Below are positions 8,318-12,151 of a stretch of DNA of 64,000 nt, piece by piece. The DNA is taken from NCBI RefSeq assembly GCF_010747475.1, contig NZ_VSLZ01000002.1, forward strand, positions 310,001-374,000, in the 5' to 3' direction. The notes beneath the pieces were generated by a model, which was not told the origin of the DNA, did not search any database, and worked only from the letters and a program-made list of their open reading frames with translations. The position numbers were made by a program, and so were the translations under genes. Origin of the DNA: Halorussus sp. MSC15.2. Its GTDB lineage: Archaea; Halobacteriota; Halobacteria; Halobacteriales; Haladaptataceae. Within the stretch, counting starts at the first letter, position 1. Every line of letters begins with the position of its first letter.

Positions 8318-9694
8318 TCAGTTAAACGCCTGCTTCAGCTGCTCGTAGGTCTTGTCTACGTTCCAGTTCGACGTGAACGTGGACATCGCGTCGCCGTAGT
8401 TGCTCTTGATTTCCGGCGGGAGTGCGAGACCGTGTTCGATGGACTTGACCTGCGCCTCGGAGTTGGCGAACTCGTCCATCTGTCGGCTGAGGAACGGCCC
8501 GAACTTGTCCTTGGGGACGTCGGTCCGCGGCGGGATGGACCCCTTCTTGGGGTTGAACCGCTCCTGAGCGTCTACCGAGCCACAGTACTGCAGGAACTTC
8601 TTCGTGGCCTTCGGCGAAGGGTTGTTCTTCGGGAAGGGGAACGAGTCCATGTTGAGCGCGTAGATACCGTCGGTGCCGGGGAACGGTACCTGACCCCACT
8701 CGGACTCGAACTCGAAGCCGTCCTGCGAGCGGTACATGCCCGCGGCCCAGTCGCCCTGGTGGAAGAAGGCGGCTTCGCCGTTGATGATTTTCTTGTTCGC
8801 TTCGGTCCACGAGATGGAACCGGCGTCGTCGTTGAAGTAGTTCTTGTACTTCTTGACGATGCTGAGCGAGTCCTTGATGGCCTCCTTGTTCTCCTCGACC
8901 TTGCCCTCGGTGAAGGCGACGTAGGTGTCCTTCCCGTACTCGCCGAGCAGGACCTGCGCCCAGAGCTGAGAGGTGGACCACGCGGACTTGGTCTGGTGGG
9001 CCATCCCGACCGCGTCGGTGTTGTTCTCGACCTTCTTCATCGCCGCCACGACGTCGCTGGGTTTCGAGATGGACAACGGGTCCACACCCGCTTCTTCGAC
9101 GACGCTCTTGTTGAAGAAGAGGTTGTTGAGGCGGTGGATGTTGAGGGGGACCGTGACGAACTTCCCGCCGGGCTTGGCGGCGTCCTTCGGTCCCTGCTTG
9201 TACGCGCTCTTCATGCCGTTCTTCGACCAGACCGAGTCGCCGATGTCCTTGAGTTTGTCGGCATCGACGAACGGCTGGAGGTGCGCGCCGGGCCACGCCT
9301 GCCACGAACTCGGCGGGTCGTTGTTCAGCACCCGCTTCTTGATGACCGTCTTGAGGTTCTGACCGCCACCGCCGGGGACGGGATTCTGGTTGACCTCGAT
9401 GTCGGGGTGCTTCTCCTTGAAGCCCTCGAACAGCGCGGTCACGGCCTTGTTACCGTCGCCGCCGGTCCACCAGTGCTGAACCTCGAGCTTGTTGTAGTCG
9501 GTCGCCTGCTCGGTCGTCGTTTCCTCGTCGGACCCGTCCGACTCGGTCGTCGATTCGTCCTCCGTCGTCGTCGCTTCGCCGTCGCCGCCGCCACCCATGC
9601 AACCGGCCAGTCCGGTGACACCGATGGTACCAGCACCGGCTACTTTGAGATAGTCGCGTCGAGAAACGTCGGAACCTTCGTTGGCATCTGTCAT
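8318..9694 (-). CDS. Sugar-binding lipoprotein of the ABC transporter
   Basis: A 458-residue extracellular solute-binding protein (family 1, CUT1). The N-terminus carries a Tat signal, SRRDYLKVAGAG, followed by a lipobox ending LAGC, then an acidic Thr/Glu/Ser-rich linker and the binding domain beginning LEVQHWWTGGDGNKAV. That opening is typical of glucose/trehalose/glycerol-phosphate-type binding proteins, but the sugar is not determinable. It is the first gene of the operon, preceded by a TATA-like TTTAAG at about 9733. Export by Tat of a folded lipoprotein is the haloarchaeal norm. Confidence 0.92.
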   Translation of the reverse strand: MTDANEGSDVSRRDYLKVAGAGTIGVTGLAGCMGGGGDGEATTTEDESTTESDGSDEETTTEQATDYNKLEVQHWWTGGDGNKAVTALFEGFKEKHPDIEVNQNPVPGGGGQNLKTVIKKRVLNNDPPSSWQAWPGAHLQPFVDADKLKDIGDSVWSKNGMKSAYKQGPKDAAKPGGKFVTVPLNIHRLNNLFFNKSVVEEAGVDPLSISKPSDVVAAMKKVENNTDAVGMAHQTKSAWSTSQLWAQVLLGEYGKDTYVAFTEGKVEENKEAIKDSLSIVKKYKNYFNDDAGSISWTEANKKIINGEAAFFHQGDWAAGMYRSQDGFEFESEWGQVPFPGTDGIYALNMDSFPFPKNNPSPKATKKFLQYCGSVDAQERFNPKKGSIPPRTDVPKDKFGPFLSRQMDEFANSEAQVKSIEHGLALPPEIKSNYGDAMSTFTSNWNVDKTYEQLKQAFN

Positions 9695-9832: not shown

Positions 9833-10453
9833 TTAACAGACGTCGTCCGAACAGGCGCAATCGGTGGAGTACACGTAGCAATCCGTGCAGTTTTGGTCGC
9901 AGTTGTACGTGTTCTGCTTCTTGTAGTTCTCCGAACAACACTCCTCGACGCAGCTCGTGTAACTACACCCCTGCGGGGTCACTCCCGAGTCGGTGACGAT
10001 GAACCGCTTGTCGCCGTTCTTCGGTTCGACGAGCGCGTAGGCTTCGTCGCGCTCCGGTTGGACGTACAGGCCGATGTCGTGGGTGTCGCTACTCGTGGAC
10101 GCCATACCCAGCGCGGTCACCGTCCCCTCCTCCACGGTACCGGTAACGCCAGCGAGTCGGTCTTCCGCGGTCGGTTCCAGTCCGGTCACGTCCGGGTCGA
10201 TGCCGAGGCTCACCTCGTCGAAGTCGAATCCTTTGCTGACGAACCCGGCGTCCACCAACTGTTGACGAACTCCTTCGCCGTGTTGTTCGAACGCGACTCG
10301 CAGTCTGCGCTCGTTGCCGTAGTTACGGGCGAGTCGGTCGGATTCGGCGACGACGGTTCCGGTCGTCGTGGTCAGTCCGGTCCCGACGACGGCAGTCGCA
10401 CCGATAGTCTTGAGGACGCTTCGCCGGTCGAGCCGCTTGTTATCACCCTGCAT
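9833..10453 (-). CDS. Tat-exported protein with a ten-cysteine C-terminal tail
   Basis: A 206-residue protein. Residues 1-37 hold a Tat signal (RLDRRSVLKTIGATAVVGTG, cleavage likely after VVAES). A mid-domain of about 120 residues (acidic, containing FDFDEVSLGIDPDV and LYVQPERDEAYALV) contains no cysteine. The last 44 residues contain ten cysteines, including CC, CxxC and CxC pairs, and end in Cys. The layout of secretion signal, Cys-free domain and Cys-rich tail is that of halocin C8 precursors, but the cysteine spacing is different. ATG at 10453 is chosen over GTG 10459 because TTAAAT at 10480-10486 lies about 30 bases upstream. Function is unknown. Confidence 0.75.
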   Translation of the reverse strand: MQGDNKRLDRRSVLKTIGATAVVGTGLTTTTGTVVAESDRLARNYGNERRLRVAFEQHGEGVRQQLVDAGFVSKGFDFDEVSLGIDPDVTGLEPTAEDRLAGVTGTVEEGTVTALGMASTSSDTHDIGLYVQPERDEAYALVEPKNGDKRFIVTDSGVTPQGCSYTSCVEECCSENYKKQNTYNCDQNCTDCYVYSTDCACSDDVC

Positions 10454-10735
10454 GCACACGTGGTTATGCTCCCCGAGAGTTTAAATCTATGCTAGGATAC
10501 TAGAAATAAAAATTGGCGAGTCTTTACAGACACTCTATCACGAGATAGCCAGTTTACCGTCGTCTATATCAGTACGCGGAGTCCAACCGTCACGGTCCCA
10601 GTCAGTACGGTACCGGCGTCGCCAACAGTCGTCGAACGAAGATACGCTTCCTCTCGGAGGGCCTCCGGACTGCCGTCGCGCTCCCGAGCGCGTTCCGGAG
10701 GGTTTTACGCCCGGAGGGGACCAACTTCGACGCGT
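10454..10735. other. Intergenic spacer with a possible gene remnant
   Basis: On the minus strand, 10538 to about 10630 encodes DCWRRRYRTDWDRDGW...GKLAIS followed by a stop, which reads like the C-terminus of a protein, but no intact upstream part exists because fumarase begins at 10736. It may be a remnant of a lost gene. The rest holds the promoters of the two flanking genes. Confidence 0.3.
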
Positions 10736-12151
10736 ATGACTAACGACGAGGACTACCGGATAGAGGAGGACAGTCTCGGAGAGATGCAGGTCCCGACGGA
10801 CGCCTACTGGGGCGCACAGACCCAGCGCGCGCTCCAGAACTTCCCCATCTCGGGAATCACGTTCGGTCGCCGGTTCGTCCGCGCGCTCGGAGTCGTCAAG
10901 AAGGCCGCCGCGCAGGCCAACCGGGACCTCGAACTGATTCCCGAGGACAAGGCCGACGCCATCGTGGAGGCCGCCGACGAGGTCATCGAGGGCCGCCACG
11001 ACGACCAGTTCCCGGTGGACGTGTTCCAGACCGGGTCGGGCACCTCCACGAACATGAACGCCAACGAGGTCATCGCCAACCGCGCCACCGAAATCTACGG
11101 CGGTGAGGTCGGGACCCGCGAGATTCACCCCAACGACCACGTCAACTTCGGCCAGTCCAGCAACGACGTGATTCCCACCGCGATGCACGTCGCGTCGCTG
11201 GAAGCCGTCGAGAAGGACCTGCTCCCGGCGCTCGACGCGCTCCGCGAGGCGCTCGAAGCCAAGGAAGAGGAGTTCGACGGCGTGGTCAAGACCGGTCGCA
11301 CTCACCTGCAGGACGCCACGCCGGTCCGCCTCGGACAGGAGTTCGGCGGCTACCGGACGCAGGTCGAGAAGGGTCTCTCCCGAATCGATTACGTGCGCGA
11401 CCACCTCTCGGAACTCGCGCTCGGGGGCACCGCGGTCGGGACGGGTCTCAACACCCATCCGGACTTCCCGGAGAAGGCGGCCGAGTACATCTCCGAGGAG
11501 ACCGGCGTCGAGTTCCGCGAGGCCGACAACCACTTCGAGGCGCAGGCCGCCCACGACGCGATGTCCGAGGCCCACGGCGCGCTCCGGACCATCGCGGGGT
11601 CGCTCAACAAGATAGCCAACGACCTCCGCCTGCTGGCCTCCGGCCCGCGGAACGGTCTCGGCGAACTCGAACAACCCGAGAACCAGCCCGGGAGTTCCAT
11701 CATGCCCGGCAAAATCAACCCCGTGGTCGCCGAGGCGGTCAATCAGGTCCACAAGCAGGTCGTGGGCAACGACGCCGCCGTGAGCGCCGGGGCCGCCGAG
11801 GGCCAGATAGACCTCAACCTCTACAAACCGGTCCTCGCCCACAACTTCCTCCAGTCCGCGGAGATGCTCGCCAACGCCTCGGAGGTGTTCGGCGAGAAGT
11901 TCGTCCGGAAACTGGAGGCCAACGAGGAACACTGCGAGGAGCAGGTCGAACAGAGCATGGCACTGGCCACCGCGCTCAACCCCCACATCGGCTACGACAA
12001 GGCCAGCGACGCCGCCAAGACCGCCCTGAAGGAGGGCAAGACGGTCAAGCAAGTCGTCGTCGAGAAGGGCTACCTCAGCGAGGAGGAAGCCGAGGAGGTC
12101 ATCGACCCCGAGGCGATGACCCATCGCGGCATCCTCGGTCGCGACGACTGA
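10736..12151 (+). CDS. fumC: Fumarate hydratase class II
   Basis: A 471-residue enzyme of the fumarase/aspartase superfamily that interconverts fumarate and L-malate in the TCA cycle. The superfamily signature GSSIMPGKINPV is near residue 321, and the active-site segments TGSGTSTNMNANEV, HPNDHVNFGQSSND and GRTHLQDATPV are all present and distinguish FumC from argininosuccinate lyase. The length is the usual one. A T-rich stretch follows the stop, and a TTTTAC element lies about 33 bases before the ATG. It appears monocistronic. Confidence 0.96.
   Translation: MTNDEDYRIEEDSLGEMQVPTDAYWGAQTQRALQNFPISGITFGRRFVRALGVVKKAAAQANRDLELIPEDKADAIVEAADEVIEGRHDDQFPVDVFQTGSGTSTNMNANEVIANRATEIYGGEVGTREIHPNDHVNFGQSSNDVIPTAMHVASLEAVEKDLLPALDALREALEAKEEEFDGVVKTGRTHLQDATPVRLGQEFGGYRTQVEKGLSRIDYVRDHLSELALGGTAVGTGLNTHPDFPEKAAEYISEETGVEFREADNHFEAQAAHDAMSEAHGALRTIAGSLNKIANDLRLLASGPRNGLGELEQPENQPGSSIMPGKINPVVAEAVNQVHKQVVGNDAAVSAGAAEGQIDLNLYKPVLAHNFLQSAEMLANASEVFGEKFVRKLEANEEHCEEQVEQSMALATALNPHIGYDKASDAAKTALKEGKTVKQVVVEKGYLSEEEAEEVIDPEAMTHRGILGRDD

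Follow-up and report, generated by a model that had tools for sequence, protein, structure and literature searches.

The sequences of very few archaeal antimicrobial peptides are known, and many inhibitory strains act by unknown agents. Halocin C8 is described as a 76-residue peptide cut from a 283-residue precursor, which is exported by the Tat route and whose N-terminal part is the immunity protein (PMC11509114). According to a review, all known halocins are hydrophobic. To be active, another secreted haloarchaeal precursor, HFX_0892/HmHapP of Haloferax mediterranei, must be cleaved by an extracellular serine protease. Compared by description, it shares with the precursors reported here that it is secreted by haloarchaea, but its active part is the N-terminal, helical stretch of 45 residues, and the main text of its report never mentions cysteine (PMC12893001). 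The 64-kb stretch of DNA analysed here (the window) encodes a member of a haloarchaeal family in which, most likely, one carrier domain common to the members serves to export a wide variety of unrelated, disulfide-rich mini-peptides that act as weapons or signals between neighbouring cells.

The layout claimed by the sequence-only reading, namely a Tat signal, a Cys-free domain and a 44-residue tail with ten cysteines, was confirmed on a 206-residue open reading frame on the minus strand (Table 1). The twin-arginine motif reads RRSVLK, residues 1-162 are devoid of cysteine and residues 163-206 contain all ten, the tail sequence being CSYTSCVEECCSENYKKQNTYNCDQNCTDCYVYSTDCACSDDVC. Among all 45-residue stretches in the six reading frames of the 64 kb, the tail is the richest in cysteine (ten, as compared to seven in the runner-up), and the chance of finding at least ten cysteines in 44 residues is about 1e-12 at the Cys frequency of the neighbouring proteins (0.75%). 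The tail is acidic and hydrophilic, with a net charge of -6 and Cys as its last residue, and with five disulfides the peptide has a predicted monoisotopic mass of 5048.70 Da. The putative TATA box is located about 29 bases from the ATG, a spacing typical for leaderless haloarchaeal transcripts. Tat models scored weakly, under the cut-off, for the window protein and better for some relatives; apart from such weak Tat matches, searches of the window protein against Pfam, NCBIfam, PADLOC and PHROGs returned noise, and a PDB sequence search returned nothing. The orthologue of Halorussus aquaticus has kept the reading frame at 89% identity, with dN 0.06 / dS 0.41 for the core and dN 0.04 / dS 0.34 for the tail. 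The most closely related orthologue pairs have a dN far lower than dS in both parts, so that the tail shows no decay. Tat start, Cys-free core and Cys-rich tail together support the view that this is the precursor layout of a secreted peptide.

Table 1. Positions of the precursor gene, its parts and its neighbours in the window, and of prenyl-synthase-like genes beside family members at other loci.
Feature	Position	Strand	Basis or remark
Sugar-ABC type substrate-binding lipoprotein gene, outside the system	8318..9694	-	conserved neighbour
Precursor gene, 206 aa + stop	9833..10453	-	ATG at 10453; orthologue of Halorussus aquaticus at 89% identity
Proposed released peptide, residues 162-206, 45 aa, 10 Cys	9836..9970	-	Cys parity in family
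Proposed release site, residues 158-161 (pre-tail motif VTPQ)	9971..9982	-	motif counts
Core / carrier domain, residues 38-161, motif LYVQPERDEAYALVEP	9971..10342	-	profile A2
Tat signal, residues 1-37, R10-R11	10343..10453	-	sequence
Likely TATA box TTTAAA, leaderless transcript	10480..10485	-	sequence; haloarchaeal spacing rule
Fumarase gene fumC, outside the system	10736..12151	+	in 18/18 Halorussus genomes
Prenyl-synthase-like protein gene	L103:3615-4466
Prenyl-synthase-like protein gene	L106:1767-2561
Prenyl-synthase-like protein gene	L116:3547-4395
Prenyl-synthase-like protein gene	L124:1675-2562
Prenyl-synthase-like protein gene	L125:1858-2703
Prenyl-synthase-like protein gene	L192:4021-4878
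Prenyl-synthase-like protein gene	L202:5772-6788

Structural modeling of the core predicted a helix hairpin followed by beta strands. The AlphaFold model, based on five sequences, has a mean pLDDT of 51, with about 62-80 in the ordered parts of the core and up to 80 in the helix hairpin (residues 31-68), and gave no fold match. A title of 2008 by Mei reportedly names a helix-loop-helix as essential for the HalI immunity protein, of which the modeled hairpin is reminiscent. Comparison of the family core with the N-domain of halocin C8 (HalI) by hhalign yielded a probability of 2% over 12 columns, i.e. no detectable homology, and the halocin C8 domain model (TIGR04449, halocin_C8_dom) did not match the window protein or 26 relatives above the cut-off. 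The sequence-only reading had called the protein unrelated to halocin C8 in spacing; neither the cores nor the tails are homologous.

The family is patchy, unnamed and new to Pfam and NCBIfam; for the 27 members searched, neither database holds a model of core or tail. A profile of the core alone (A2, 27 sequences, tail left out) found the family in 60 of the 392 genomes searched within the order, frequently in several copies, with six in the window's own genome and at least eleven in G035. The novel haloarchaeal family which had been suspected is far larger than the one gene, multi-copy and polymorphic. The outcome by which the sequence-only reading would have been refuted did not arise, since the tail is neither universal in haloarchaea nor fused to an enzyme domain and the gene comes and goes at its native site even among Halorussus genomes. 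A whole-protein search of 99 relatives gave matches in 22, and in a phylum-wide sample two of 196 genomes matched, the window genome (G000) and one of the same order. Named relatives occur in H. aquaticus XZYJ18 (89% identity), the metagenome-assembled genome SW_6_65_15, Natrinema gari and Halovivax asiaticus. From the loci 128 distinct open reading frames were recovered, some places with weak profile matches being left out. In protein searches of plasmids and phages the window protein and its paralogue L064 found no match, the paralogue L065 matched plasmids of two Halorussus species, annotated as hypothetical protein, and no family relative was found on viral contigs. No title or abstract opening in the literature searched describes the family; the survey of antimicrobial peptides in archaea by Makarova et al. 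(2019), where an overlap is most likely, may contain it.

At its native site the gene is flanked by the binding-protein gene and fumC, the ordinary neighbourhood which had been noted before, with no dedicated exporter, protease or immunity gene among its neighbours. These two flanking genes adjoin each other in 15 of 18 Halorussus genomes examined. The precursor stands between them in three of the 15 (the window genome, H. aquaticus and G006) and is absent from the other 12 (G002, G003, G007-G011, G013-G017), in which the binding-protein gene is directly joined to fumC, the binding protein of G003 and G011 being only 38-40% identical. G005 carries a family relative about 4 kb from the site, and in G001 and G012 fumC is adjoined by other genes. 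This is the strain-specific distribution which the sequence-only reading proposed to look for, at the level of species.

The tails have an even number of cysteines in 113 of the 115 members in which a Tat start was recognised and the tail holds four or more cysteines (13 of the 128 frames were omitted, ten with no recognised Tat start and three with too few cysteines), and both odd tails have one extra cysteine upstream of the tail. In a wider set, from which four truncated duplicates or frame-broken pieces and six frames with fewer than four cysteines were omitted, 115 of 118 tails have an even count, as do all members of 74 of the 77 tail types. Counts range from 4 to 22. On the simplest reading of this parity the tail cysteines would pair as disulfides rather than form a zinc site.

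While the core can be aligned throughout the family, the tails fall into about 77 unalignable types of 20-86 residues. Leaving out Cys, the null for tail identity has a mean of 0.23 and a 99th percentile of 0.45. The tail is retained in pairs with a core identity of at least 0.70; of 21 such pairs (core identity 0.70-0.999), 12 have a higher non-Cys identity in the tail than in the core. Between 0.45 and 0.70 the 33 pairs diverge in behaviour, 12 having a tail identity of at least 0.5 and 13 of less than 0.3: L007 and L009 share 0.54 of the core and 0.75 of the non-Cys tail, the tandem pair at L089 0.60 of the core and 0.11 of the tail, and the tandem copies at L138 0.63 and 0.21. The tail is thus constrained within an orthologous line and wholly replaced from one paralogue to another, the tails of many paralogues being no more alike than by chance; such a pattern would be expected if the tail is the working part. 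Common delivery parts with exchangeable C-terminal ends are also the rule in polymorphic toxin systems, with which the family shares the conserved N-terminal part and the unrelated ends; in contrast to these systems, the ends are disulfide-rich peptides of 20-86 residues and not toxin enzymes, and no cognate immunity gene recurs beside the members at the mapped loci.

A search with TIGR04449 identified halocin C8-like genes in 53 of the 392 genomes, one of which (L144) ends in halocin C8 itself. These precursors share with the family the Tat signal, the N-terminal domain, the C-terminal Cys-rich peptide, the patchy occurrence and the even Cys number, which was found in 24 of 24 parsed relatives (30 loci, two unparsable and four with no recognised RR). 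In addition, some members of each share a motif preceding the tail. [VI][ST][TPIV]Q stands before the first tail cysteine in 17 of 115 family members (500 shuffles: mean 0.6, maximum 4) and in seven of 26 distinct halocin C8-like precursors (1000 shuffles: mean 0.27, maximum 3), as compared to one of 630 core windows and a background of 184 in 70088 windows taken from neighbouring proteins. The strict motif is absent from halocin C8 itself; the halocin C8-like precursor L155 has VTTQ/IDVTGC at the position of the halocin C8 cut, PTPA/DIDITGC. Since the motif precedes the tail in both families, we take V-S/T-T/P/I-Q as a putative common release site. The family differs from the halocin C8 precursors in the absence of TIGR04449, in N-domains that cannot be aligned with theirs, and in its hydrophilic, acidic, shorter and hypervariable tails.

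It might therefore be proposed that the precursor is exported by the Tat route and cut at the VTPQ linker, that the core, a helix hairpin and beta sheet, serves the tail as a carrier or chaperone or protects the producing cell, and that the freed 45-residue peptide, held by five disulfides, targets neighbouring haloarchaea, which it most likely antagonises, while gene duplication and tail replacement would give rise to new specificities. We are fairly confident of the more general part, a secreted precursor with the tail as its product. Whether release occurs precisely at VTPQ appears evenly balanced, and, given release, an antagonist is somewhat favoured over a signal, an adhesin or an inhibitor. 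As a whole, a halocin-type precursor releasing a 45-residue antagonist is an explanation that we favour by a slight lean only. It is backed by the Cys parity, the constraint and polymorphism of the tails, the patchy native site, the motif shared with halocin C8-like precursors, and sub-groups in which DrrA-type ABC exporters or HExxH lipoproteins adjoin the precursor. Against it count the acidic, hydrophilic tail, as opposed to the hydrophobic known halocins, the ordinary neighbours of the window gene, the restriction of the strict linker motif to 17 of 115 members, a core with neither halocin C8 N-domain homology nor a fold match, and the wide occurrence of HExxH lipoproteins.

The neighbour maps cover 119 loci, some genes being mapped twice via overlapping loci. 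In these, no gene family recurs beside most members, no obligate adjacent immunity gene was found, and none of the recurrent neighbour families was recognised as LanM or LanB/LanC, as judged from the maps. DrrA-type ABC ATPases with ABC-2 permeases occur at L063, L064, L084, L098, L101 and L139, and further off at L111, so that a link of ABC exporters to the precursors is suggestive at six to seven loci. HExxH lipoprotein genes were found at nine loci, at most 15 bases downstream of the precursor in L066, L121, L136 and L206. As a processing protease this lipoprotein is only suggestive, since its superfamily is present in 382 of 392 genomes and also at similar sites with no precursor (L214, L215, L217, L218). 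A two-membrane-segment protein, present at five loci, was dropped as a candidate partner as relatives occur in 60 of 60 genomes searched. As both families are widespread, these two links are weak to moderate.

A more restricted partner is a prenyl-synthase-like protein of 265-339 residues, whose gene adjoins family genes at seven loci (Table 1). The protein occurs at 13 places in 12 of 392 genomes; 11 places are strong, and seven of these adjoin a family gene, six of the seven having built the search profile. It matches prenyl diphosphate synthases (nonaprenyl synthase, E 5.8e-7), and in ten sequences the first Asp-rich motif is invariant and the second contains an invariant Q and D. Q and D at this position are described in a review as the hallmark of tryptophan prenyltransferases, ComQ and PalQ among them (PMC13290415). 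Trp is located within the last two residues in nine of nine linked tails as compared to six of 109 others (Fisher 5.6e-10, uncorrected because the link was spotted post hoc in the same data). The nine Trp tails are spread over as many as five regions of the core tree, firm branches forcing fewer, and a tree-based test had too few independent pairs (two on firm branches, five on all). As a rare prenyl-synthase-like enzyme adjoins precursors whose nine tails all end in Trp, tryptophan prenylation of the tails of this sub-group is suggested, and a ComQ/PalQ-like pair, the first in archaea, is possible. With ComQ/ComX and PalQ the sub-group shares the prenyl-synthase-like gene beside Trp-ending precursors and the Q and D; its precursors differ in being Tat-exported, disulfide-rich and archaeal, and the likeness lies in motif and Trp. 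This reading does not apply to the window gene, because no match to the enzyme was found in its genome and its tail ends in Cys.

By analogy to ComX of Bacillus, the tails might also be pheromones, released self-specific signals whose diversity reflects strain-specific communication. The prenyl-synthase-like partner with its Trp-prenyltransferase hallmark and the several different peptides within one genome would fit this role. However, no receptor or response-regulator gene recurs near the precursors at the 119 loci, the enzyme link covers nine tails only, and the window genome has no such enzyme, and we consider signalling unlikely. Slightly less probable still is surface recognition or adhesion, in which the tail would remain on the protein and mediate contact between self and non-self: a polymorphic C-terminus upon a common secreted core would suit such a function, yet there is no lipobox Cys after the signal and, by eye, no membrane segment or C-terminal sorting motif. 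Small disulfide-rich domains commonly serve as inhibitors, and the tail might be a secreted knottin-like inhibitor of the cell's own or rivals' halolysins. Haloarchaea do secrete precursor-processing serine proteases (PMC12893001), but about 77 tail types are hard to explain by few conserved targets, which makes this improbable. Least credible is a Cys-rich metal-binding or redox domain, for, despite the abundance of Cys (on average 22% of the residues in a tail), even counts including 6, 10, 14 and 18 as well as 4, 8 and 12 fit pairs and not four-thiolate sites, Cys spacing varies between tails with no conserved Cys/His sets of four, and the protein is extracellular and patchy.

Extending the halocin-type explanation to the whole family, one might envisage a polymorphic peptide arsenal, with one carrier, dozens of tails, a halocin C8-type release site and a sub-group Trp-prenylated by a ComQ/PalQ-like enzyme; we put this forward tentatively, as a rather doubtful proposal in its entirety. 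If true, it would represent a venom-like diversification system in prokaryotes and include the first prenylated ribosomal peptides of archaea, none of which were, to our knowledge, known earlier. The family provides more than 100 candidate peptides with predictable masses and a proposed release site as well as a candidate carrier for self-protection, and the enzyme/precursor pair of the sub-group predicts tryptophan prenylation in archaea.

Several further observations concern individual loci. Four of the strong enzyme places, L210 to L213, have no family gene. At L213, which lies at a contig end, no Trp-ending frame is visible either. Beside the prenyl-synthase-like gene of L210, L210:3051-3791 (-) encodes a Tat precursor whose hydrophobic tail has four cysteines and ends in NNSWI, a different candidate peptide class. 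Two 34-residue frames ending in Trp, L211:4995-5108 (-) and L212:3620-3817 (+), are alike in two genomes and convergent with the prenyl-synthase-like gene; they may represent a short substrate or chance. In the window genome a halocin C8-like gene lies on another contig (C4:191504), outside the window and 14 kb from a family member (C4:177620); in G059 the two kinds of gene are 6 kb apart. Clustering of this kind (6-50 kb, few genomes) was weak against a rough hand-worked expectation. At L106 / L209 (G208:C1:3414364-3416267) the prenyl-synthase-like gene and that of the two-membrane-segment protein enclose three family genes in tandem, whose tails differ. At L061 and L082, a family member whose short tail is rich in CC has beside it a small Sec-type protein of 70 residues, in which VTTQ and four cysteines follow the signal.
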